From Bacteriovorax sp. BAL6_X (GTDB taxonomy: Bacteria > Bdellovibrionota > Bacteriovoracia > Bacteriovoracales > Bacteriovoracaceae): a stretch of 64,000 bases of DNA. Below the pieces are notes generated by a model. The model made no database searches, was not told the DNA's origin, and saw only the letters and a list, made by a program, of their open reading frames with translations. The translations under genes were made by a program, and so were the position numbers. Positions 12,937 through 26,073 of the stretch are shown here, one piece after another (the stretch's first letter is position 1; each line of letters starts with the position of its first letter). Where the stretch lies: positions 62,001 through 126,000 of the forward strand of contig NZ_AUMC01000008.1 of assembly GCF_000443995.1 (NCBI RefSeq), given 5' to 3'.

Positions 12937-13292
12937 ACTTCTGGCCTAGTACGGCCAGAGGCCTTTCGAATACGATCTATTAAAGTTTCCAATAGATTTC
13001 GAAACCACTTAGGCTGTTTACTGAGATAAACTTCAAATTTAACAGAAGGAATAACAATTAGTTTAGAATTTGTTAGGGCCTTAATCGTAGCACAGCGAGG
13101 GCCACCATCGAAGAAGCTCATCTCCCCGACTAACTCTCCAGGAAAAATCGTTCCAATCTTAACCTCTTGATTATTTCTAACTTTAAAGACACCCAGTGTC
13201 CCCTCTTCAAGGATATACACTTCAGTACTCTCATCCCCTTCTCGAATCAGATATTGATCAGCATTAATGAATAAATTTGACGGACTACTCAT
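12933..13292 (-). CDS. Stand-alone cyclic-nucleotide-binding domain protein (copy 2)
   Basis: The 119-residue protein is a single CAP_ED cyclic-nucleotide-binding domain with no DNA-binding or enzymatic partner domain. The phosphate-binding cassette is preserved (PGELVGEMSFFDGGPRCATIKA with Glu and Arg in place), after REGDESTEVYILEEGTLGVF. It is clearly a paralogue of the next gene upstream, with the same order of motifs and a very similar C-terminal helix (KQPKWFRNLLETLIDRIR versus RPKWLQSMMKTLADRLR). It is 12 nt downstream of that copy. The ligand, cAMP, cGMP or none, is not decided by sequence. Confidence 0.88.
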   Translation of the reverse strand: MSSPSNLFINADQYLIREGDESTEVYILEEGTLGVFKVRNNQEVKIGTIFPGELVGEMSFFDGGPRCATIKALTNSKLIVIPSVKFEVYLSKQPKWFRNLLETLIDRIRKASGRTRPEV

Positions 13293-13304
13293 AACTAGGC
13301 CCTT

Positions 13305-13652
13305 CTACACTTTGATTTTTTCGTTAGTTGATCGAAGTCTATCGGCCAAAGTCTTCATCATACTCTGTAACCACTTAGGTCTTGAGTCTATAAATTCATT
13401 AAATTTTTGAGCATCGAAGATTTCAAGTTCACAATCTGTAATGGCCTTCACAGTTGCGCAACGTTTTCCTTTATCAAGAAAGCTTACTTCACCAACAAAC
13501 TCACCACTATAAATTGTTCCAATTTGCTTTTCTTCACCATCAATTTTTTTAAAAACAGCGAGAGTTCCTTCTTTCAGAAGATACATACAATTACTTTCCT
13601 CGCCTTCATTGATAATGGCCTCCCCAGGAATAATATGAATTGTCTCTCTCAT
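13305..13652 (-). CDS. Stand-alone cyclic-nucleotide-binding domain protein (copy 1)
   Basis: A 115-residue single cyclic-nucleotide-binding domain. EGEESNCMYLLKEGTLAVF and SGEFVGEVSFLDKGKRCATVKA supply the beta-barrel and phosphate-binding cassette, including the conserved Glu and Arg. It lies 15 nt downstream of lplA and 12 nt upstream of its paralogue, so the three form one transcript. A GGAGC ribosome site precedes the ATG. Such lone domains act as sensors that dock on partners or as subunits; none is encoded next door except the paralogue, which suggests a heterodimer. Confidence 0.88.
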   Translation of the reverse strand: MRETIHIIPGEAIINEGEESNCMYLLKEGTLAVFKKIDGEEKQIGTIYSGEFVGEVSFLDKGKRCATVKAITDCELEIFDAQKFNEFIDSRPKWLQSMMKTLADRLRSTNEKIKV

Positions 13653-13667
13653 TTCAGCTCCGAAAAT

Positions 13668-14624
13668 TTAAACAAAGAGAATACGATGACATTGCTCAAC
13701 AAATTCACTCTGCTGTTCAGTTAAATTAAGCTCAAGTCTATTTAAATAATAATCCTTGTCGACAATTAGATCAATCAAAGAAGGATTTTCTGGCTCACAT
13801 GAGATAATTTTCGCATACTTTGCAGTTACTAAGAAGTCATCACACATAAAGGAGAACTTAGGCGTTGCTCCATAAACCCATTCCCAACTCATATTAGTTT
13901 GAATCTTTTCCATAAGTGATTCAATGGAACAGATATCTTGCTCAAATAGCTCAAAGCTGTCACTTTTAGAATCATAACTAACCTCAAAGGATTGCTTAAT
14001 AGAGTCAACGATTGAAGATTCTGTAATAGCAGCATTAACTTCTTTTAAATTTATCACTTTTGAAGGAACAGACTTAACACCCATTGCCGATTCAGCAGTC
14101 AACTTAGAGCGCAGCAGCTCATTTAACTGGTTTAGATTAGCATCAATTAAAAGTGTGCCATGATGAAGAGCACTATGCTTCGTTTCTTTAAAAGCACAAC
14201 CAGATATCTTATAATCAACATTTTCATGGTGGAGCCTAAGATCATGGCGTTCATTTTCAAAAGCATTAATCCCTAGTGACCTAAGTCCACTAACTACGAT
14301 GGATGCATTCTTGGATTTATCATAAGATGTCTTTGGACTAATGAATGAGTAATTAATATTTCCCAGATCGTGGTAAACACATCCACCACCACTTTGTCTT
14401 CTTACCAAATTGATACCAAGCTCTCTGATTTTTTTCACCTGACACTCTAACCATGGGTTTTGAAACTTCCCCATAACAATGCTTGGAGCACTCTTCCATA
14501 TAATAAGAATTTGCTCCAGGCTACTTTCAGATTGATGCTTGCGAAATAGATAATCTTCAAACGCCAAGTTAACATAAGGGTTTGTTGAGTGAATATAGTA
14601 GAACTTAATAGAAGGAGTGATCAT
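13668..14624 (-). CDS. lplA: Lipoate-protein ligase A family protein
   Basis: A 318-residue cytoplasmic ligase/transferase that attaches lipoate or octanoate to lysine of 2-oxoacid dehydrogenase E2 and GcvH proteins. Recognised motifs are RRQSGGGCVYHDLGNINYSF (about 74-94) and the lysine-containing KISGCAFKE, followed by HHGTLLIDANLNQL. A C-terminal extension of about 70 residues suits bacterial LplA, in which a C-terminal domain is needed for the adenylation step. The gene overlaps none of its neighbours; the next upstream gene ends 11 nt away. LipM-type octanoyltransferases are similar and cannot be wholly excluded. Confidence 0.88.
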   Translation of the reverse strand: MITPSIKFYYIHSTNPYVNLAFEDYLFRKHQSESSLEQILIIWKSAPSIVMGKFQNPWLECQVKKIRELGINLVRRQSGGGCVYHDLGNINYSFISPKTSYDKSKNASIVVSGLRSLGINAFENERHDLRLHHENVDYKISGCAFKETKHSALHHGTLLIDANLNQLNELLRSKLTAESAMGVKSVPSKVINLKEVNAAITESSIVDSIKQSFEVSYDSKSDSFELFEQDICSIESLMEKIQTNMSWEWVYGATPKFSFMCDDFLVTAKYAKIISCEPENPSLIDLIVDKDYYLNRLELNLTEQQSEFVEQCHRILFV

Positions 14625-14635
14625 GCGCTAATGTA

Positions 14636-15052
14636 TCATTCCTCACTTAATCTTTGAGTAATGCTAGTATCAAGTTCACTTACATCAAATTCCTTAAGCG
14701 CACGTGTTGATTTTCGACAAAGCTTAAGCTTTTCTTGTAGTCCTTTACTTTGATCCGGAAAAGAATCATCTTGAAGCTCAATCTCTTCGATCGTTTGCTC
14801 TAGTGGTGCACAACCATTCTTTAAGATAACAAAAGAGAGATATTTTGATATAGGAAGCTCTTTCACATTAGTTCGAGAGCTTATATTAGAGATATATTCT
14901 TTACTTTGCTCTCTGAGGGAATCGAGCTGTCTTGACAACTCTAGCTCAGAACTCATAAGTGGACGAGCAAAGGTACTAGAATTAAAAAATGTAAAAATAA
15001 GGGCAAAACTTGTAGTTAATCTCACTAGGCCCAACGAGTCTATTGCTTTCAT
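14636..15052 (-). CDS. Small exported protein, unknown function
   Basis: Not recognised. The 138-residue product starts with a hydrophobic signal-type segment (about 10-29, ending TFARP), then a helical, charged body with two cysteines (NGCAPLEQ and LCRKS), which could form a disulfide. A good AAGGAA ribosome site precedes the ATG. It is 11 nt upstream of lplA and 33 nt downstream of the HAD phosphatase gene on the same strand. Confidence 0.6.
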   Translation of the reverse strand: MKAIDSLGLVRLTTSFALIFTFFNSSTFARPLMSSELELSRQLDSLREQSKEYISNISSRTNVKELPISKYLSFVILKNGCAPLEQTIEEIELQDDSFPDQSKGLQEKLKLCRKSTRALKEFDVSELDTSITQRLSEE

Positions 15053-15085
15053 ATGTAATTCCTTTTACATAGCTGCTATTTTGAC

Positions 15086-16039
15086 TCAATTTGTCTTATT
15101 TGGCAATGACTTAGCAAATTTTAACACCTCAGAAAAACTAGAAGCTAAATACTTCACACCATCAAGTGGATAGCGATTCTTAAGGTGGATTGTTTCGAGA
15201 AGAGGAAAATTAAGTTGATCACTAACCTTATCCCCTACCATATATGAGTTTTTAAGATCGATAGCGAAGTCAAAACATGCCTCAAGAAGCATGCCTGGAT
15301 GTGGTTTCCTTAAAAGAGAATGGTATTTATATTGCCCAACACCTTTAGTGAACTCAAATGGAGCAATATAGAAAGCATCAATTAAATGATGAAGTGATTC
15401 ATTTAAAGCATCATTGAATTTTTCAACATCAGTGTACTCAAACATTCCCTTTGAGACACCTGACTGATTAGTAAGAACCAGTTTAAGTCTTTTCTTATTA
15501 TAATCATCTAAGAGGAATTCGTAAGCGCCAGTAACGAGCTCCAACTCCGAAGTCTTATGTACATATGAATGATCGACATTTAAAATACCATCACGATCCA
15601 AGAATAAGGCCTCTTTATAATCACCAATATTGAAGTATCGATTTAGAATAGGCATGACTTCTCTTGAGAAATCAGGCATCCCAACAGGATCAATTCGGTC
15701 TATAAAGAAAACACCTCCTGCACTATAGTAATCGGCACATACAGAAATATCTCTTACATCTGGAAAGTACTTCTCACATGCTTCGAGTTCATCTCCATTT
15801 AGATTTAATTTTGATAAGTAGTAGTACTCACAATTACCAGTTTTTGGCATATAATAGAGATTAAATATATCTGGCTTCACACTACTTTTAGTCGTAATTA
15901 AAAGAACTTTTTTTCCATCATTTAAAAATCTTCTTAATTGAGAGTCTCCCTCAAACTCATGAATTTCAAACTTAACACAATGACCAAAGCATTTATTTAT
16001 TTCGTCAAAATCTCTTTGGCATAAAACGATATCAAACAT
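15086..16039 (-). CDS. HAD-family phosphatase (GmhB/HisB-like) with unknown N-terminal domain
   Basis: The C-terminal half (from about residue 140) has all HAD motifs of the D,D-heptose-1,7-bisphosphatase / histidinol-phosphatase branch: FLDRDGILNVD with Asp148 and Asp150, LTNQSGVSKG, RKPHPGML and VGDKVSDQ. The cysteine cluster that binds zinc in GmhB and HisB is absent. The N-terminal about 140 residues match nothing I know. I choose the ATG at 16039 because AAAGGA lies 5-6 nt upstream; an ORF extension of seven codons overlaps the preceding gene. It starts 1 nt after that gene's stop codon, so the two are tightly coupled. The substrate may be a sugar phosphate or a 3'-phosphate of nucleic acid (the PNKP phosphatase is a related HAD subfamily); context favours neither strongly. 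Confidence 0.72.
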   Translation of the reverse strand: MFDIVLCQRDFDEINKCFGHCVKFEIHEFEGDSQLRRFLNDGKKVLLITTKSSVKPDIFNLYYMPKTGNCEYYYLSKLNLNGDELEACEKYFPDVRDISVCADYYSAGGVFFIDRIDPVGMPDFSREVMPILNRYFNIGDYKEALFLDRDGILNVDHSYVHKTSELELVTGAYEFLLDDYNKKRLKLVLTNQSGVSKGMFEYTDVEKFNDALNESLHHLIDAFYIAPFEFTKGVGQYKYHSLLRKPHPGMLLEACFDFAIDLKNSYMVGDKVSDQLNFPLLETIHLKNRYPLDGVKYLASSFSEVLKFAKSLPNKTN

Positions 16040-16040
16040 C

Positions 16041-17078
16041 TTAATCCTTTTTGTAATCAAATTTCATCGAACAATTAATCTTATACGATGGGGCCGTGAA
16101 TTTATTCATAGGCTTGACACGAATCTGTAATTTATCCTTTTCAATCTCAATATTAAAAGATGAAATCTCCGGGTTAAGATCACAAATTGAAACCATAGCG
16201 GCCTGGGCATAATTAACAACATGACAAAAGTCTAATTTATAAGTGTTGTGCTTATAAAAACAAATACCTTGTACAACATCTTTATTCCCAAGGCCCATAA
16301 GAGGTAATAATGATGCAATAAACTTATCCTTATCTTTTTCAAGAAGCCCTGAAAATATATTATGATAATGCTTAATGAGGCTTCGATAAAGCTCAAATAA
16401 GTCCTCACGGTCTGCACCTTGCAATTCACCTGGAAGTTGAGTCATTTCCCACTGTGAATCAAATCGGCCACAATACTCTAAATCATAACGCTCATAGAGC
16501 TTCTTATTAAAATGAGAAAATTCTTGATCAATATATTCATTTAAAGTGTGTTGGGTGAAATCAATATCAGAATAAGACTTAAAATACTTTTGAAAAATAC
16601 TCTTGGCACCGGCCGACTTCGTTGTGATATTGGCACCACTCTTTACGAGTTTTAAACTGATAGGAATAATACGAGTTTCATCACGATAGATCACCTGTGC
16701 CACAATATCCGCTTCATGTAATTGAGACTTAATAAGATGGTCACTTAATTTTCCGATGACTGTAATATTCGTGATACTCCCCTTGATATTTTCATTAATC
16801 GAAAGGGCCATCTCTTTAGCAAGTCTTGGTAATTCCTCCAACAGAGTACGAGCATGAAGCCTCAACCAACTTTCATATTCACGCATCATTTTCAATAGTT
16901 CATGATCAATATTCTTAAGAAAATTAGCTTCAATATTATTTAAGGTAGATATCTCTTTAGCGACGAGAAATTCAAATAGATTGCCCTTGATCTCATTTTT
17001 TAAAGCTTCAAGTTGAGTGCGGTTATGAACTTCTTTGAAATTATTAATGAATTGGTTCTTGCCAGAGCTTTTAGACAC
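16041..17078 (-). CDS. Uncharacterised protein with possible PD-(D/E)XK nuclease-like core
   Basis: No named family recognised. The 345-residue soluble protein has a helical N-terminus and then a pattern like restriction-endonuclease folds: GNLFEFLVAKEI with Glu36, HEADIVAQV with Asp124, and PISLKLVKSGANI with Ser141-x-Lys143 16 residues later, followed by a conserved-looking TTKSAG segment. This is the E...D...xLK order of PD-(D/E)XK enzymes with Ser in place of the usual acidic residue. The start is GTG at 17078 behind AAGGAAAA. It is coupled to the HAD phosphatase gene, and no methyltransferase is next to it. The nuclease idea is an inference from one pattern and is weak. Confidence 0.5.
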   Translation of the reverse strand: MSKSSGKNQFINNFKEVHNRTQLEALKNEIKGNLFEFLVAKEISTLNNIEANFLKNIDHELLKMMREYESWLRLHARTLLEELPRLAKEMALSINENIKGSITNITVIGKLSDHLIKSQLHEADIVAQVIYRDETRIIPISLKLVKSGANITTKSAGAKSIFQKYFKSYSDIDFTQHTLNEYIDQEFSHFNKKLYERYDLEYCGRFDSQWEMTQLPGELQGADREDLFELYRSLIKHYHNIFSGLLEKDKDKFIASLLPLMGLGNKDVVQGICFYKHNTYKLDFCHVVNYAQAAMVSICDLNPEISSFNIEIEKDKLQIRVKPMNKFTAPSYKINCSMKFDYKKD

Positions 17079-17122
17079 TTATTTTCCTTAACTCGATAGC
17101 ACATAAAAAAATTTGATCTTTT

Positions 17123-17151
17123 TTGTGGCCAAGTGAGTCTCTCTTTATTAT
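17123..17151 (+). promoter_or_regulatory. Predicted promoter of the pyrB-carAB-pyrF operon
   Basis: TTGTGG (17123-17128), a 17-bp spacer and TATTAT (17146-17151) give a sigma70-type promoter with a start near 17158, about 35 nt upstream of the chosen pyrB ATG. Its position argues against an earlier pyrB start at 17123. Confidence 0.5.
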
Positions 17152-17191
17152 TCTTTCTTCAATAAATGTATCTCAACACTACTGGAATGTC

Positions 17192-18181
17192 ATGATTGGA
17201 TTTCCATCTATTCTAGAAGGAATAGAAGATTTAAACCGCGAGCAAGTTGAGCAACTCCTCCACCGCGCCCAGGAACTTAAATTAGGTTCCCCGGCCAGAC
17301 TTCCCCTTAAAAGAAAAATTTCAGTCGCAACATCTTTTCTTGAGAATTCTACTAGAACAAAATTATCATTTGAAATGGCCATCAAAAAGCTTGAAGGAAT
17401 TCATATCAATTTTGACGCTGAGAAATCATCACTAAAAAAAGGTGAATCTCTGGAGCAGACACTACTAACTCTCTTCTATCAAGGAATTGATATTTGTATT
17501 GTACGTACGACAGAAACAAGACTACTTGAACAGTTTAAGGATTACCCACCGATTAAAATCATTAATGGTGGAGATGGAACAAACCAACACCCGACACAGG
17601 CACTCTTAGACCTATTTACTCTCAAAGAATACTTCAAAGGTGAGCTGGCCGCAAAGAAGATCTGTATTATTGGTGACTGCACACACTCAAGAGTAACTCA
17701 CTCCCTGATGGATTTGTTACCATTATTTGGAATGCAGATAACACTTTGCGGGCCTAAAGAATTTATGCCATCACACTTACCTTCAAATGACCTTATCAAA
17801 GTAAGTGATGATCTCGAAGAAACCTTAAAAAACTCAGATGCAATTTATCTGCTTAGAATTCAAAATGAACGACATGAAGAAAGTTTTGATATGTCGACAT
17901 ATAACCAGCGATGGGGAATAAATGTAGAACGTCTCCTTAGCATAGGAAAGGTTGTACCTATCTTCCATCCAGGACCTGCTAATATTGGGATTGAAGTAGA
18001 TAGCGAGATTGTTAATTCAGATCTATGGATGGCCCATAAACAAGTAGAAAATTCCATTTATATTCGCATGGCAATAATCGAGGCCATGATAACTAATGGC
18101 GACACTAAAATCGGTGCTCGCTATAATAAAATCTCTGCACTAAAAGGACTGACGGAAAATGACGAAAGCAAATTTAGATAG
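17192..18181 (+). CDS. pyrB: Aspartate carbamoyltransferase PyrB
   Basis: The 329-residue enzyme condenses carbamoyl phosphate and aspartate to carbamoyl-aspartate, the committed step of pyrimidine synthesis. Motifs: SFLENSTRTKLSFE with the carbamoyl-phosphate loop STRT (53-56), HPTQALLDLF, and FHPGPANIG near the C-terminus. Length matches the class without a PyrI subunit. I choose the ATG at 17192, giving MIGFPSILEG, since the longer ORF extends into a good promoter; the ribosome site (GGAA) is modest. Its last 23 nt overlap the start of carAB, so product and supplier enzyme are co-translated. No pyrI is seen. Confidence 0.92.
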   Translation: MIGFPSILEGIEDLNREQVEQLLHRAQELKLGSPARLPLKRKISVATSFLENSTRTKLSFEMAIKKLEGIHINFDAEKSSLKKGESLEQTLLTLFYQGIDICIVRTTETRLLEQFKDYPPIKIINGGDGTNQHPTQALLDLFTLKEYFKGELAAKKICIIGDCTHSRVTHSLMDLLPLFGMQITLCGPKEFMPSHLPSNDLIKVSDDLEETLKNSDAIYLLRIQNERHEESFDMSTYNQRWGINVERLLSIGKVVPIFHPGPANIGIEVDSEIVNSDLWMAHKQVENSIYIRMAIIEAMITNGDTKIGARYNKISALKGLTENDESKFR

Positions 18182-21100
18182 GTATTCATTCCTATCTCAA
18201 TCTCAAGAATTACTCTTTCAAAAATCTCTTAAAACGACTCCTATTTTCCTTCATTTTCCAGATCAAACAATTTTTAAAGCCTATATAAACCTCGACAAAA
18301 ATGATCCACGACTACAAAGTGGTATTTTTGGAGAAGCGGCCTTTACGACAGGAATGACAGGCTATCAAGAAACGGCCACAGACCCTTCATTTCTTGGCCA
18401 ACACATTATCTACACAACGGCCCATGTTGGAAATTATGAGTTTAACGAAGTTGTATCTCAAGGCCTAAACTCAAACAGGCCTTACGCCGCAAGCCTAATC
18501 GCAAGAAATTTCTCTTATAATAAATTTCTAGAAAATTGTGATTTACCTCTTATAAGTGATGTGGATACAAGGGCGCTTACGAAATACTTATCTTGTCAAT
18601 CTAACGATCACCGCTGCCTCATTACCACATCTAAACGGCCACCTAACTTTTCTAATTATGAACTTGAATGTAACGATCTTTCAAAAGTTTCATTAAAAGA
18701 AAAGAAGATAGTCACAAGTGGAGAAAATCCAATAGTCGTCATCGACTATGGAATAAAAAAGGCCATTGTTAATTATTTAAAGGAATTAGGACACCCTCTT
18801 GTGGTTGTCCCACATCATACGCCAGCACATGAAGTTCAGGACTATAGACCAAGGATGGTCTTTTTATCTAATGGGCCAGGTGATCCAAAGCTCCACAAGC
18901 AAGAAATCGAAACAGTAAAGGAGTTACTAAGAACTAATATTCCAATTCGTGGAATTTGTCTTGGACACCAATTAATTGGCCTGGCCTGCGAAATGGAAAC
19001 AATCAAACTTCCCTTTGGACAACGAGGTGCCAACCATCCTGTATATTCTCACTATAACCAAGACCTACTTATCACAAGTCAAAACCATGGCTACGCTATA
19101 GATAAGGAATCATTCAATAGAAAGAGATTAGAAAACCAATTTGGATTAAAACTATTCTGTGAATATACTTCGCTATTTGATCGTTCTCTAGAAGGACTAA
19201 GAAGTTATGACTCACGTGTTAGAAGCGTACAATTTCACCCAGAATCAAACCCTGGGCCTAAAGATGCTGCTGTCTTCTTTAGCGAAATCAAAGACTTTCT
19301 AGAAAATGGTGCAAAAATAATTTCTGCTGAAGAAATAAAAGAGCTTCCTAAGTACCATGAAGGAAAATTAAACTCTCCGTATAAGAAGATTCTTCTAATA
19401 GGCTCAGGCCCGATTAAAATTGGCCAAGCATCTGAATTCGACTACAGTGGAACTCAGGCCCTAAAGTCCCTTAGAGAATTAGGTTTTGAGGTTGTTCTTT
19501 TAAACTCAAACCCTGCAACTATCATGACAGATAAGAATATGAGTCACCGTACTTATATTGAACCAATCACAAAAGAGACGATCAAAAAGATCATAGCAAA
19601 AGAAAATGTTGACGCTGTTCTTTCTACGATGGGAGGACAAACTGCACTTAATATGTGCATTGACTTAGAAAAGGAAAATTTTCTAAAAGACAATGGTGTT
19701 GCTCTTTTAGGTGCAAATATTGACACAATCGAGAAAACAGAAGATCGTGAACTCTTTGCAAAAGAACTCGATAAGCTCGGCTATAAATCAGGAAAGAGAT
19801 TTAGTGCTAAAAGCTTTGATCACGCACTAGAATTAGCTGATGACCAAGTTAAATTCCCTCTTATTATCAGACGAGATTTTGCACTTGGAGGAAAAGGCGC
19901 CGCCCTTGTTCACAACACTGAAGAGCTTGCCCAAACCTTATCTTCTAGTGATATTAAGTTTCCAATTACAATGGAGAAGTCCCTGCTAGGTTGGAAAGAG
20001 CTAGAACTCGAAGTTATGGTTGATAAAAACCACTGTGGAGTTGTTATCTGTTCAATCGAGAATGTCGACCCATGTGGGATCCACACAGGAGACTCTATTA
20101 CAGTTGCACCAGCACAAACAATCTCAGACCATTGCTACCAACAACTAAGAACAATGTCCCTTAATATTGCCAAGCATATGAATGTTGTGGCCGGAGGGGC
20201 CAACGTTCAATTTGCCGTTAACCCAAAAGATGAAAATGATATTGTTGTCATTGAGATGAACCCTCGTGTGTCTCGCTCTTCGGCCCTTGCCTCGAAGGCC
20301 ACAGGCTACCCTATTGCTAAAATCTCAGCAGGACTTGCTGTAGGCTTAACTCTTTTTGAGATCCTAAATGATATCACACGTATCTCGCCGGTGGCATTTG
20401 AGCCGACACTCGATTATGTGGCAATTAAGATTCCAATCTTTCCATTTAATAAATTTCCTTCAAGCTCTCAAATCTTAGGCCCACAAATGCGCTCTGTCGG
20501 TGAAGTTCTGGCCCTTGGAGGAAGCTTTAACGAATCATTCATGAAAGCACTAAGAGCAACTGAGCAAGGGCTTGAGATTCCAAGCCTAGAACAACTCAAG
20601 ACTACTCCTTATCCAATGACAGAAGATTATCTTCTTGAAAGACTAAAGAACCAAAGAGAGTTATCTCTTCTAACTGTTTTAGAAGCATTAAGATTTGGTA
20701 TTACACCAGAAAAAATTCACGAAGTAAGTGCCATTACGCCTTGGTTCATCGACCAAATGGTTTGTTTTCTCGACAAGGAATTAAAACTAAAACAAGATAC
20801 CCAAATCTTGGAAAACAACGACGAACTCTATGAATTAAAAAAGCAAGGCTTCTCAGACAAGTACCTTGCTCTTCTATCAGGTCAAAGCCAAGAACAAATT
20901 TTAGATAAGAGAGTCTCTGCCGGTATTAGGCCAGTTTTTAAAGCAGTAGACACATGCTCTGGTGAGTTTAATGCCCTAACACCATACTTCTACTCAACTT
21001 ATACACAATTTAATGATGTCCAAAGAATCGAAGAAGAAAGTTGTGCAATCTTTGGCTCAGGCCCTAACCGCATTGGTCAAGGGATAGAGTTTGATTACTC

Positions 21101-22607
21101 TTGTGTAAAAAGTGCAATGGAATTAAAAGAGCAAGGGATTAAATCGATACTTCTTAACTCTAACCCAGAAACAGTTTCAACAGATTATGACAGCTCCGAC
21201 AGACTGTACTTAACACCACTTTTCTCAGAAGACCTTTACGAGATTCTAGCTTTTGAGAATCCAAATCACGTCATCACATCTTTTAGTGGCCAAACCGGAA
21301 TTAATATCCGCGCCCACTTAGAGGCCACTTTTAGAACAAAGCACCAAGAGTTTAACTTCTTAGGGCCAAGCCTTGAACTATTAGACACTGTTGAAGATCG
21401 TAAAAGATTTGATCTTTTAACCAAAGAAATTGATCTTGCCCACACAACTTCAAAAGAAATAAGAGGCTACAAGAATCTAGTCAATACTATTACTGAGATT
21501 GGTTATCCTGTTATTATAAGGCCTAGTTATGTTATCGGTGGCGAGAGTATGTTTATCTTTGAAGGGCCTACAGATATTGAAAACCTTCCCGAAGAAACTT
21601 TAAAATCTCTTCATGAAAACACAATCGCATTTCAAGTCGAAAACTATATCTCAAATGCACTTGAATATGACGTTGATCTTATTCGTGACAAAGAAGGAAA
21701 TACAGTCTTTACAATTTGTGAGCATATTGAATATGCAGGTGTTCACTCAGGTGACTCAGGTATGATTTCACCACCAGTAAAGGCCCGTCCGCAGATCATT
21801 GATAAAATGAGAAAACTTGCAACAGATATGGCCAATACAATGGAAATCACTGGCCCTATTAACTTTCAATTTGCTCTTAAAAATGATGAAATCTACTGTA
21901 TCGAAGCAAATCCTAGAGGTTCAAGAACAATACCATTCCTATCAAAGGCCTATGATGTCAATCTTGCAGCAATTGCAACGAAGGCCTTACTTGGTAAAGA
22001 GATAGAAAATCACCACAATTTTAAATGTGGATATAAAATCATTAAACAATCAACATTTCCATTTGATCGTTTTGTTCAAGACTCAATTATTCTTGGCCCA
22101 AAAATGAGATCAACTGGAGAAACACTTGGTATTGATAAGAATCAGGACCTTGCTATGATTAAATCATATCTTGGAAACTACCCAGATCTTCTTACAAAGA
22201 AGTCTGTTCTAATTTCATTAGCAAGAAAAGATGATGAGCAACTCATTCAAAATATTAAAGAGCTAGACTCTTTAGGCTTTAAATTCTATGCCACTAAAGG
22301 TACCTACAACTTCTTAAATAAGGAATGTGCAGTTAAGGCCATTCTCGTAGACAAATTGGCAGATAATGCATCTAATATTGGAATGCTTGAGGCCATAAAA
22401 AATGACGACCTGGCCATAGTACTAAATACACCACTAAACCAAGGACGATCTCAATCAGATGGTGAATTTATCAGAAATACGGCAATTCAATATGCGGTGC
22501 CTTGTTTTACAAGAATTGAAAATATCAATGCTGTCTGTAAGGCGATCATTGCGGCCAACTCAACGGATTCAACACCAGTAAGCCTACAGGAGATGACAAA
22601 TGGATAA
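18159..22607 (+). CDS. carAB: Fused carbamoyl-phosphate synthase (CarA-CarB in one polypeptide)
   Basis: A single 1,482-residue chain. Residues about 28-385 are CarA: the small-subunit N-domain (FGEAAFTTGMTGYQET) and a class I glutamine amidotransferase with triad Cys267 (GICLGHQ), His360 and Glu362 (FHPES). After a short linker (about 386-407) CarB begins: LLIGSGPIKIGQASEFDYSG, two ATP-grasp halves, and a second FGSGPNRIGQGIEFDYS, ending in an MGS-like allosteric domain (about 1340-1475). The whole makes carbamoyl phosphate from glutamine, bicarbonate and two ATP. Bacteria nearly always encode CarA and CarB separately; fusion is the eukaryotic CPS/CAD arrangement. No internal stop or ribosome site suggesting two products is apparent. 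The ATG lies in the pyrB tail and the stop overlaps pyrF by 8 nt. Confidence 0.95.
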   Translation: MTKANLDRYSFLSQSQELLFQKSLKTTPIFLHFPDQTIFKAYINLDKNDPRLQSGIFGEAAFTTGMTGYQETATDPSFLGQHIIYTTAHVGNYEFNEVVSQGLNSNRPYAASLIARNFSYNKFLENCDLPLISDVDTRALTKYLSCQSNDHRCLITTSKRPPNFSNYELECNDLSKVSLKEKKIVTSGENPIVVIDYGIKKAIVNYLKELGHPLVVVPHHTPAHEVQDYRPRMVFLSNGPGDPKLHKQEIETVKELLRTNIPIRGICLGHQLIGLACEMETIKLPFGQRGANHPVYSHYNQDLLITSQNHGYAIDKESFNRKRLENQFGLKLFCEYTSLFDRSLEGLRSYDSRVRSVQFHPESNPGPKDAAVFFSEIKDFLENGAKIISAEEIKELPKYHEGKLNSPYKKILLIGSGPIKIGQASEFDYSGTQALKSLRELGFEVVLLNSNPATIMTDKNMSHRTYIEPITKETIKKIIAKENVDAVLSTMGGQTALNMCIDLEKENFLKDNGVALLGANIDTIEKTEDRELFAKELDKLGYKSGKRFSAKSFDHALELADDQVKFPLIIRRDFALGGKGAALVHNTEELAQTLSSSDIKFPITMEKSLLGWKELELEVMVDKNHCGVVICSIENVDPCGIHTGDSITVAPAQTISDHCYQQLRTMSLNIAKHMNVVAGGANVQFAVNPKDENDIVVIEMNPRVSRSSALASKATGYPIAKISAGLAVGLTLFEILNDITRISPVAFEPTLDYVAIKIPIFPFNKFPSSSQILGPQMRSVGEVLALGGSFNESFMKALRATEQGLEIPSLEQLKTTPYPMTEDYLLERLKNQRELSLLTVLEALRFGITPEKIHEVSAITPWFIDQMVCFLDKELKLKQDTQILENNDELYELKKQGFSDKYLALLSGQSQEQILDKRVSAGIRPVFKAVDTCSGEFNALTPYFYSTYTQFNDVQRIEEESCAIFGSGPNRIGQGIEFDYSCVKSAMELKEQGIKSILLNSNPETVSTDYDSSDRLYLTPLFSEDLYEILAFENPNHVITSFSGQTGINIRAHLEATFRTKHQEFNFLGPSLELLDTVEDRKRFDLLTKEIDLAHTTSKEIRGYKNLVNTITEIGYPVIIRPSYVIGGESMFIFEGPTDIENLPEETLKSLHENTIAFQVENYISNALEYDVDLIRDKEGNTVFTICEHIEYAGVHSGDSGMISPPVKARPQIIDKMRKLATDMANTMEITGPINFQFALKNDEIYCIEANPRGSRTIPFLSKAYDVNLAAIATKALLGKEIENHHNFKCGYKIIKQSTFPFDRFVQDSIILGPKMRSTGETLGIDKNQDLAMIKSYLGNYPDLLTKKSVLISLARKDDEQLIQNIKELDSLGFKFYATKGTYNFLNKECAVKAILVDKLADNASNIGMLEAIKNDDLAIVLNTPLNQGRSQSDGEFIRNTAIQYAVPCFTRIENINAVCKAIIAANSTDSTPVSLQEMTNG

Positions 22608-23274
22608 AACATTTGTAGCCCTTGACGGTATGAATAGACAGGAGGTTTTTGACCTTTTGTCGGCCTACCCACAAATTAAGAATGTAAAAGTCGGACTAGA
22701 ATTATTTCTTCGATACGGTAGAGAGTTTGTCAAAGAGTTATCGCAAAAGTATCAAGTCCAAATTTTTCTAGATCTAAAATTACACGATATTCCAACAACC
22801 GTCGCTAAGGCATGCAAAACACTAGATGGCCTAAACATACGATTTCTTACAGTACATGCAACAGGTGGAGCTAAGATGCTCGAACTTGCTAAAGAGAGTA
22901 TTTCAAAGACTGTTGCTAATTGTGAAATTTTAGCAGTGACAATTCTAACATCCCACAATAACAGTGACATAAAAGGTATTTGGGGACGTACTCACAAAGA
23001 AGCTCTAATAAATTTACTAAATGAAGTTGCAGCATCTGGTGTAAGGGGTATCGTGTGCTCAGGGGCGGACCTAGATATTGTTAAGAGTTTTGAAGAAAAA
23101 GCTTCTCTAAGTTTTACAAAAGTATGCCCTGGCATCAGGCCAGGTAGCGATCATGATGACCAAGTGAGAGTTATGACACCTCAGGCGGCGATGGATGCTG
23201 GTGCAGACTTCCTTGTCGTAGGAAGGCCAATCACTAGGAATCCAGAGGTTTTACGACAAAACCTCTTTCCTTAA
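22600..23274 (+). CDS. pyrF: Orotidine 5'-phosphate decarboxylase PyrF
   Basis: A 224-residue TIM-barrel enzyme making UMP from OMP. FLDLKLHDIPTTV carries the catalytic DxKxxD motif, and the phosphate-binding loop is formed by PGIRPG and VVGRPIT near the C-terminus. Length is typical of the bacterial group I enzymes. The start overlaps the carAB stop by 8 nt, completing an operon pyrB-carAB-pyrF. No terminator is visible between it and the convergent gsk gene, 12 nt away. Confidence 0.95.
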   Translation: MDKTFVALDGMNRQEVFDLLSAYPQIKNVKVGLELFLRYGREFVKELSQKYQVQIFLDLKLHDIPTTVAKACKTLDGLNIRFLTVHATGGAKMLELAKESISKTVANCEILAVTILTSHNNSDIKGIWGRTHKEALINLLNEVAASGVRGIVCSGADLDIVKSFEEKASLSFTKVCPGIRPGSDHDDQVRVMTPQAAMDAGADFLVVGRPITRNPEVLRQNLFP

Positions 23275-23286
23275 AACGAAAAATAG

Positions 23287-24585
23287 TTACATTTCCCAAT
23301 AGCTTTCTTCTAGACTTTGCTCTTTAACCGGTAGGTTACGAGAGAGTCTAGGAGACTTCTGTTTTAGAACTTCATAACTTGTGCGATTTGCGTATTTACA
23401 TAGCTGGTGAATCGAGGAGTACGTTAAATACTTACCATCATGCTTGATTGAATGAGGTAGTAGTTTTTGGTGATAAACATTTGCCGCTATATCATGCAAG
23501 ATTGCAGACAGCGCTGCATCTCCAGCACCATTTGTATTCTCAATGTTTTCAGGCCCTCCCATAAATGGATTAATATGAGAATAAATCTTAATGGGTCCAC
23601 TACAATCAGCTCTTAGCTGAGAGCGAGAATATTCATATTTATTATAATTTTCAATCGACTTAGAATGTAGCTTATCTTTTGTTTCACGGGCCTTAGTTTC
23701 ACATGCCCAAGAAGCAATATAGAGACCTCTTTCCCCATCTGTAATAAGTGCTAAATCGGTATAGTCTAAAATCTTCTCTCCAATAAGTAATGGGTCATCG
23801 ATACCAAGTAATGCCTGGGCCTCATCACGATTCATTGCTAAGACATTTACATTTTCTCTAATGAAGTTTCTGAAGAACTCTGTATCACTTTCTATAAGAG
23901 AGCTTGTCCCAAGAGCAAAAACAACTGGTATATCATTTTCTTTAGCAATTCTTACTGCCTTCAGTGTTGCTTTATAAAGTGGAGCATTACGATCCCTTAA
24001 AAGAAAGGCCGTCACTAATAAGGCGCTTGAGTTACTAATGAGATCATCAGGAATAAACTCTTCAGTAAGTTGATTCATAATCCCCTTTCCAATAGCAAAG
24101 GTTCTCTCTTTATCTGGCGTAATCAAACACATTGCTCTGGCCATCTTGCCTGCACATGGTTGAAGGTAGCTAAAATCTACTTTAGAAGAAGTGCTACAGA
24201 TATATTTAAAGGCATAGTCTCCAACCTTTATCGTTTCACAAATCGTTCCAAGAGCAAAAGACTGGTCATCTGACAATACCGAGTAGTTATGTAGAGTATT
24301 TCCGACCGCTCCACCAGCATATTGGCCTAGAATACGGCCCTCTTCATATGAGCGTTGATAAAGATCTTCTACATCCTTATCAGATAACACATAAGACTCA
24401 CCGGCCTTAAGTTTAAACTCTTCTAATAGTTCAAATGAAGCATCAACTTCGATATCAACAAGAAGCTGATCGATGCCAACAATATAAACATTCTCTTTGC
24501 GGTTAAAATCTGTCTCAAAAGAAAGTCGACCCTTGGCACTTACTGGAAAGTAATGTTTTGATCTTCTCTTACCTGGAAATCTCAT
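23287..24585 (-). CDS. gsk: Inosine-guanosine kinase
   Basis: The 432-residue protein resembles E. coli Gsk (434 residues) along its whole length: MRFPGKRRSKHYFPV at the start, VGIDQLLVDIE, GGAVGNTLHNYSVL, the PfkB anion-hole motif NTNGAGDAALSA, and a C-terminus SPRLSRNLPVKEQSLEESYW. It phosphorylates guanosine and inosine to GMP and IMP for purine salvage. A nucleoside-scavenging enzyme suits an organism that may feed on the contents of other cells, although that link is inference. An AGGAT ribosome site precedes the ATG. It is divergent from the barrel protein gene at 24639. Confidence 0.95.
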   Translation of the reverse strand: MRFPGKRRSKHYFPVSAKGRLSFETDFNRKENVYIVGIDQLLVDIEVDASFELLEEFKLKAGESYVLSDKDVEDLYQRSYEEGRILGQYAGGAVGNTLHNYSVLSDDQSFALGTICETIKVGDYAFKYICSTSSKVDFSYLQPCAGKMARAMCLITPDKERTFAIGKGIMNQLTEEFIPDDLISNSSALLVTAFLLRDRNAPLYKATLKAVRIAKENDIPVVFALGTSSLIESDTEFFRNFIRENVNVLAMNRDEAQALLGIDDPLLIGEKILDYTDLALITDGERGLYIASWACETKARETKDKLHSKSIENYNKYEYSRSQLRADCSGPIKIYSHINPFMGGPENIENTNGAGDAALSAILHDIAANVYHQKLLPHSIKHDGKYLTYSSIHQLCKYANRTSYEVLKQKSPRLSRNLPVKEQSLEESYWEM

Positions 24586-24604
24586 AAATAATCCTAAACT
24601 AATG

Positions 24605-24632
24605 TAGTCAAAAATTCTATTTTGATTATAAT
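24605..24632 (+). promoter_or_regulatory. Predicted promoter giving a leaderless transcript
   Basis: A perfect TATAAT (24627-24632) lies six bases before the ATG at 24639, with TAGTCA (24605-24610, 4/6 to TTGACA) 16 bp further up. The expected start coincides with the A of the ATG, and no ribosome site exists between them. Confidence 0.55.
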
Positions 24633-24638
24633 AGATAT

Positions 24639-25484
24639 ATGAAAAAACTTTTAGTGTTAATTTTTTCTCTTACTCAATTAAGTACTCTCGCCTATCGTTA
24701 TGCCGTGACAAAGTCACGACAAACAATTGTCTACGCTGACGTTAATCTTTCGGCCCCAATTGGCTACATTCGTAGTGGGAGAAAAATCAAAGTTGGAGAC
24801 AATGACCTAAAACAAGGAACGATTGTACCACTAGTAGTATCAGGAAAGATTGCATATGTTAGAACTAATGATATAAGTTACTCGATTTCTGGAACAAAAC
24901 TTGAGCATGTTCCTGAAGTCACAGATCACGATGTAAAAACAATATTCACAAATGATGCCCAAAGACTAAAAGAAAATAGTTTTATCTCTCTGGATTACTC
25001 AAGATTTGAGGCCGGCACGCAATGGGACGACTTTCAGGCACAATATGCCAATGAAACTTCTCCTGCCTTTAATCGTTTTAATCTAGCGATCGAATATCGT
25101 GACCCTAAACATCGTCATGGCTTCAAGCTAACTCTTGGTTACATAAATGCTTCAGCTACATACAGTAGTATCAATAGTGTTCTTGGAGAGCTCCAATATC
25201 AATTTCGTTTCATTAATCGTAACAGCTTTGTTACCGAAGGATTTGCAGGTCTTATTCTAACAGGTGATTTTGAACAAGAAAATTTTGGCGAAAAGGCAAC
25301 GGGAATGGCCTATGGATATAATATTGGTGGCCGTATTCGTTTTGCACCTTATTCAAAGATTGGCTTTTATGGCCAAGCAGGACTTACCGGTCTTTATACA
25401 AGCTCAATGGATAAATTGGTTACAGAAACAGTTTCTTCAATTGGTGGTGTAACAATTGGAGCAGGAATAAGCTTTCGCCTCTAG
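24639..25484 (+). CDS. Exported protein with SH3-like N-terminus and outer-membrane barrel-like C-terminus
   Basis: A 281-residue protein with signal peptide about 1-18 (ending TLAYR). Residues about 20-75 resemble a bacterial SH3-type domain (IVYADVNLSAPIGYIRSG, then the basic stretch GRKIKVGD). From about 100 the sequence alternates hydrophobic and polar residues with many aromatic residues and ends in SFRL, as outer-membrane beta-barrels of the OmpA/OmpW size class do. The combination suggests a small porin or surface protein, but I do not recognise the family. The transcript is probably leaderless. Confidence 0.6.
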   Translation: MKKLLVLIFSLTQLSTLAYRYAVTKSRQTIVYADVNLSAPIGYIRSGRKIKVGDNDLKQGTIVPLVVSGKIAYVRTNDISYSISGTKLEHVPEVTDHDVKTIFTNDAQRLKENSFISLDYSRFEAGTQWDDFQAQYANETSPAFNRFNLAIEYRDPKHRHGFKLTLGYINASATYSSINSVLGELQYQFRFINRNSFVTEGFAGLILTGDFEQENFGEKATGMAYGYNIGGRIRFAPYSKIGFYGQAGLTGLYTSSMDKLVTETVSSIGGVTIGAGISFRL

Positions 25485-25493
25485 CTCAATGAA

Positions 25494-25955
25494 CTAGAAG
25501 CATTTAATAGAGTTATTTGCACCATCTTCGTTTTTATAGCTGACAAAAATCTGGTCAAGGTTTTCATCGTATTCTACTTTTACGAAATAATTATCAAATA
25601 CTCCTGAAAACATGAATCGACTTTTCATCGATACGAATACAGATAAGTAAATTGTATTTTCATCGGGACTCTCTAGCTCAGCTTGACTAAGAGAATAGAT
25701 ATTAAATTTCAAATCATCGGCCTCAATTGATAAAGAAGCTTTTTGTCCATCTAAACAAACTTTCTTATAGTCTCTTTTGATGGTATCCATAACGATCTCT
25801 TCAATCTGCTCAGCTCCCCAGCCAGTTTTTGCACCCCAGCCAGTCTTAAAATCAATATCAATCTGATTATCCATATATGAGAATGTCTTCTCAGTAGAAA
25901 TTAGTGCAAAAGCATTAAATGAGATAATAATAGATAGTAAAATTGATTTTAGCAT
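25494..25955 (-). CDS. Small exported protein with duplicated KTGWGA motif
   Basis: The 153-residue product has a signal peptide (about 1-17, ending FNAFA) behind a strong GAGGGAAAG ribosome site. It is not a recognised family. Residues about 38-49 are an exact KTGWGA duplication, coded by an 18-bp tandem repeat that differs at a few synonymous positions. The C-terminal part is beta-rich with two cysteines (VCLDGQ and the penultimate Cys). It is convergent with the barrel protein gene, 9 nt apart. Confidence 0.55.
   Translation of the reverse strand: MLKSILLSIIISFNAFALISTEKTFSYMDNQIDIDFKTGWGAKTGWGAEQIEEIVMDTIKRDYKKVCLDGQKASLSIEADDLKFNIYSLSQAELESPDENTIYLSVFVSMKSRFMFSGVFDNYFVKVEYDENLDQIFVSYKNEDGANNSIKCF
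25812..25847 (-). repeat. Two tandem 18-bp in-frame units (KTGWGA)2
   Basis: Two adjacent 18-nt units encode the same hexapeptide. The copies differ only at synonymous third positions (AAG/AAA, GGT/GGA and GCA/GCT), so the duplication is old or was kept at the protein level. Confidence 0.8.
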
Positions 25956-26073
25956 TTCTTTCCCTCATGTATGATGGGTTATTTATCCTATACCAAGGCA
26001 TTTTCATCAAGTAAGTATGTAATATATTTAGGTAGTTGCTAAATAATTTAATCAATCTGTCGATATGTAAACT

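Follow-up and report, generated by a model that had tools for sequence, protein, structure and literature searches.

The fused gene and its domains

Pyrimidine synthesis begins with carbamoyl-phosphate synthase (CPS), which most bacteria carry as two genes. A single long frame in the DNA of Bacteriovorax sp. BAL6_X seems to hold both, raising the question of whether it encodes a genuine one-chain enzyme and where the fusion came from. We analysed the whole stretch of 64,000 nucleotides around it, called here the window.

The frame runs on the forward strand from an ATG at 18159 to a TAA at 22607 (4,449 nt) with zero internal stops, and the uninterrupted 1,482-residue frame described in the sequence-only reading was thus recovered. 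Pfam and NCBIfam matches together cover a complete small subunit and, after it, a complete large one. Along the + strand, the following parts were delimited: a CarA N-terminal domain (CPSase_sm_chain, residues 56-145; 18324-18593), divergent and lacking 11 residues that correspond to E. coli 86-96; a class I glutamine amidotransferase domain (GATase, residues 193-377; 18735-19289); an inter-subunit linker placed by alignment and AF2 model (approximately residues 383-408; 19305-19382); the bicarbonate-phosphorylating first half of CarB, with preATP-grasp and ATP-grasp domain 1 (residues 409-733; 19383-20357); the CarB oligomerisation domain (CPSase_L_D3, residues 827-906; 20637-20876); the core of ATP-grasp domain 2, in the carbamate-phosphorylating half (residues 1089-1253; 21423-21917); and an MGS-like allosteric domain (residues 1362-1451; 22242-22511). 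The CPSase_L_D1 and CPSase_L_D2 models each match in two stretches. The protein passes the large-subunit model TIGR01369 (1176.6 bits for a cut-off of 1027); with the small-subunit models it scores 295.1 bits for TIGR01368, below the cut-off of 307.35, and 280.7 bits for NF009475, above the cut-off of 221. Judged from these sequence profiles, the small-subunit half is divergent.

Functional residues were compared across 37 fused proteins, at positions chosen from the E. coli structure and verified against the K-12 sequence. The glutaminase triad Cys267/His360/Glu362, equivalent to E. coli C269/H353/E355, is kept in 37/37 proteins, and the glutaminase positions checked (8/8) and the CarB ATP-site positions (16/16) are invariant, leaving ATP and metal ligands intact. 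The full amidotransferase triad, both ATP-grasp halves and the MGS-like end, all noticed from the letters alone, are therefore present. The presence of Cys267 separates the protein from the ammonia-only CPS I, which is defined by the loss of this cysteine. Most residues of the UMP site are retained: of the six positions compared, two (T974 and N1015) never vary, three (K954, T977 and K993) hardly vary, and proline always takes the place of T1017. UMP would probably inhibit the fusion protein. At the six ornithine-site positions, E892 is changed to Q and D1041 to F in all fused proteins, and Y1040 mostly to C; these substitutions do not demonstrate a loss of regulation, because the same positions vary in other bacteria too.

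Distribution of the fusion

Across the 125 family genomes searched, 49 full-length fused frames were recovered, that of the window included, distributed over 18 genus groups. Seven further fused frames cross the junction and are clipped by contig ends. The fused frames span about 1,460-1,510 residues, and the relatives are 56-69% identical to the window protein. Full-length carriers include near-complete genomes in few contigs. A scan of named genomes brought in Halobacteriovorax marinus, Bacteriovorax sp. BSW11_IV and DB6_IX as well as many MAGs. Some carriers are labelled Epsilonproteobacteria, Deltaproteobacteria or Bdellovibrio; their proteins are 60-62% identical to that of the window, like those of other carriers. 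In the named-genome scan, the first 45 loci hold 40 full-length fused frames and the remaining 35 hold none, showing separate genes or single subunits. The genome collection was scanned once, with two peptide patterns drawn from the fused clade, so that other bacterial fusions are possible.

In other members of the family (g36, g43, g27, g5 and others), carA and carB are two genes whose products share about 42% identity with the fused protein. No fusion was detected in 57 genomes from the other 28 families of the phylum, where CarB matches lie apart from CarA. The survey of Bdellovibrionota proposed beforehand thus confines the fusion to part of one family.

Several candidates were rejected. 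One long match in Poseidoniales archaea (58-1477) corresponds to separate adjacent carA and carB genes, and the extended open frames surrounding CarA in two genomes, G358 and G319, lie in high-GC, non-coding-looking sequence. Among plasmid records, the best matches listed prove, where annotated, to be conventional carA-carB pairs, and none of these matches reaches 60% identity. Two observations concern unfused pairs. In G070 (L063:865-5030), too poorly assembled and long-branched for a call, the end of carA and the start of carB share about 150 nt in different frames; its CarA falls beside the fused clade (support 88), yet RpoB places the genome among the split members. Separate carA-carB pairs in G053 (L056), G120 (L057) and G366 (L197) have a CarB grouping with eukaryotic CPS1 (support 100), with a NeuB-like gene on one side of the G053 copy and a gene for a sugar epimerase/dehydratase on the other.

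Origin of the fusion

Separate phylogenies of the CarA and CarB parts, suggested in the sequence-only reading, each gathered the fused proteins into one clade (support 99 and 100, respectively) apart from eukaryotic CPS1. Sampled fused genomes also fall into one clade of the RpoB tree (support 100), which otherwise holds only two CPS-less genomes, and 17 of 18 PyrB proteins from fused loci form one clade (support 99), adjoined by the divergent PyrB of G020. In these trees the fusion arose a single time, among the Bacteriovorax/Halobacteriovorax members of the family. From the earlier proposal of an independent fusion or a transferred gene, the former is retained, with one clade in the CarA, CarB and RpoB trees and a distribution limited to part of the family, and transfer from a eukaryote is dropped (see below).

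The source was further analyzed with AU tests, whose p values are somewhat optimistic because the groups were named after the first tree had been seen. A clade uniting the fused proteins with Bdellovibrio-type CPS is compatible with the data (p 0.38), and one uniting them with E. coli/Tistrella is rejected (p 0.007). The stem of the fused clade is very long, with about 1-1.9 changes per column; the placement is consequently weak and leaves the nearest unfused relative between candidates. The simplest reading is that a CPS of the type found in the phylum would have been fused once and then diverged fast.

Alternatively, the family's own carA and carB, as found in its unfused members, may have been joined, which we consider unlikely. 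Many split members do keep the gene order pyrB-carA-carB. However, the CPS of the split members groups with Paenibacillus/Fusobacterium-type enzymes, and its union with the fused clade is rejected under the model used (AU p 5.6e-5), early-branching members such as G020 and G070 being thinly sampled.

Structure model and predicted mechanism

An AF2 model was built for residues 1-940 of 1482, i.e. without the second synthetase half (pLDDT 79.4, pTM 0.81). With human CPS1, a natural single chain, 847 of its residues superpose at 3.7 A, a span taking in the glutaminase, the linker and the first synthetase half together, and the linker is thus compatible with an ammonia-passing arrangement. The fusion protein would probably catalyse and channel in the manner of E. 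coli CPS. Cys267 would release ammonia from glutamine, and the ammonia would be handed on to the synthetase part of the single chain. There, ATP-grasp 1 would form carboxyphosphate and ATP-grasp 2 would phosphorylate carbamate. The resulting carbamoyl phosphate would pass to PyrB, encoded directly upstream in the overlapping pyrB-carAB-pyrF array.

The chain of about 165 kDa presumably stays unprocessed. The linker, of about 25 residues, contains no ATG, GTG or TTG start codon. That the chain is translated whole but cut at the linker, the working enzyme still consisting of two subunits, is improbable: the variable linker sequence across the fused clade would fit such cleavage, but the alignment shows a similar linker length throughout and the linker is modelled with a pLDDT of about 80.

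A very improbable origin is the transfer of a fused, CAD/CPSII-like gene from a eukaryote into the bacterium. The domain order in one chain is identical and no structure matches the full length better than human CPS1, but the trees separate the fused clade from CPS1, and a tree uniting it with eukaryote-type enzymes is rejected with an AU p of 0.0035, for a thin eukaryotic sampling whose sole row is a partial human CPS1. Moreover, E. coli CarB alone scores 833.6 bits, versus 747.2 for both CPS1 halves together. Since this test rejects a eukaryotic source, the likeness to eukaryotic CPS is taken as convergent. Finally, an erroneous joining of two genes in sequencing or assembly, which the two-gene arrangement of most bacteria might suggest and which had been named beforehand as a possible refutation, has a negligible probability and is excluded by the same frame being open in the 49 full-length and 7 contig-cut cases, some of them in near-complete genomes.

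It is very likely that the product of this gene is a functional CPS dependent on glutamine, with a CarA glutaminase and a CarB synthetase joined by the short linker, and that the gene was fused once, in an ancestor common to the Bacteriovorax/Halobacteriovorax clade, its source being bacterial and not eukaryotic.

The pyr locus and the use of carbamoyl phosphate

The fusion gene is overlapped by 23 nt by pyrB, encoding aspartate carbamoyltransferase (17123-18181, +), and by 8 nt by pyrF, encoding orotidine-5'-phosphate decarboxylase (22600-23274, +). On the other strand, the frame at 16041-17078 (-) encodes a 345-residue protein with no Pfam match, which adjoins the pyr locus in the relative G127 too (39% identity). 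An Rfam scan of 13000-26000 detected no element at the gathering threshold, and promoter-like sites are present in about the number expected by chance.

The host is a predator isolated from Apalachicola Bay, with a genome of 3,233,679 bases (PMC4511183). This genome encodes one CarA and no second, and PyrB is its only carbamoyltransferase of the ATC/OTC family. ArgF is absent, ArgG (argininosuccinate synthase) has no match over the cut-off, and no PF02543-type carbamoyltransferase was found. The dihydroorotase PyrC is encoded on another contig. The single transferase PyrB, the lack of ArgG and PF02543 proteins and the separate PyrC point to carbamoyl phosphate being made for pyrimidines only; service to pyrimidines alone is the most likely role of the fused CPS, from a gene search that covered the ATC/OTC family, ArgG and PF02543 proteins, HypF aside. 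Only one ATC/OTC-family transferase is found in 19 of the 20 fused genomes checked, G113 having a second. ArgG exceeds the cut-off among fused genomes only in G073 and G113, a point against this reading.

Relatives without CPS

No CPS was detected in 13 genomes of the family, eight of which are 94-97% complete. Each of these eight carries three transcarbamoylase genes, versus one in most CPS-bearing relatives. YgeW exceeds the cut-off in exactly 12 of the 125 genomes, 11 lacking CPS and one, G040, having both; CPS is thus missing from 11/12 genomes with YgeW versus 2/113 others (Fisher p 5e-13, uncorrected for kinship). The remaining two genomes that lack CPS have no YgeW over the cut-off and are 62-68% complete. 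In the YgeW-YgeY clusters (L280, L281 and L285-L298, from G023, G055, G058-G061, G063, G109, G126-G128 and G040), YgeY adjoins YgeW in 12/12 cases, followed by a xanthine-dehydrogenase-type protein and SsnA in 10/12. YgeW is a transcarbamoylase of purine catabolism; the E. coli enzyme uses phosphate to split a ureido acid, which yields carbamoyl phosphate (PMC12507026). The near mutual exclusion of YgeW and CPS suggests purine breakdown as a source of carbamoyl phosphate for pyrimidines, which may replace CPS in these relatives.

The pyr locus of the CPS-less G127 (L282:3519-8205) keeps the two upstream genes found in the window, pyrB and pyrF, with a dihydroorotase-like ORF occupying the carAB position between the latter two. 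The RpoB tree includes four of the CPS-less genomes, which require three changes. G040 (L288, G040:C26), with both fused CPS and YgeW, may represent a transitional state between CPS-bearing and CPS-less relatives.

As a whole, these results leave room, at slightly less than even chances, for the reading that a pyrimidine-only single-chain bacterial CPS evolved independently, convergent with the eukaryotic enzyme, and became fixed in predators that had lost arginine synthesis; nested relatives would later have discarded it for carbamoyl phosphate drawn from prey purines via YgeW. With CPS present as two genes, fused or absent within one family, the carbamoyl-phosphate source of these predators can be tested directly. 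The fusion clade also opens the question of whether fusion comes after the arginine branch is lost and CPS serves pyrimidines alone.

Comparison with known systems

We found no description of the fusion in this clade, an absence that weighs little as subscription papers mostly lay outside the search; genome papers on these predators, including PMC4511183, mention neither CPS nor pyrimidine genes. A passage of a 2018 review states that bacterial CPS can be one fused peptide and names no organism (PMC6022934), and PMC4009401 examines the E. coli enzyme as a 'prefusion' complex. Concerning the earlier caveat that the fusion might be widespread and long documented, it is indeed widespread in close relatives and mentioned by the review in general terms, but no paper was found on these organisms.

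E. coli CarA-CarB (CPSase II, PDB 1BXR) resembles the fusion protein in domain content and order, in the catalytic residues checked and in most UMP-site residues. It differs in forming two subunits rather than one chain, and the fused clade has, besides the CarA deletion of 11 residues, 36 clade-specific substitutions. Human CPS1 (PDB 5DOU) and eukaryotic CPS II/III share the single GATase-synthetase chain and a matching relative domain placement, but form a separate clade; human CPS1 uses ammonia only, whereas the Bacteriovorax protein, with its intact glutaminase cysteine, is predicted to be glutamine-dependent. CAD and fungal Ura2 likewise have CPS fused to a glutaminase and are devoted to pyrimidines, as is probably the case in Bacteriovorax. 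However, they unite CPS, aspartate carbamoyltransferase and dihydroorotase in one chain, whereas in Bacteriovorax the latter two are separate genes. With the fused bacterial CPS of the review, the architecture is common; the present analysis adds the clade that carries it, its one origin and its setting in the host. The fusion is a tidy example of convergent evolution and not a new kind of system: a natural case, in cultivable predators, where bacteria and eukaryotes came independently by the same subunit fusion. Fused bacterial CPS was already known in general; the present work delimits one clade of it, with a single origin.
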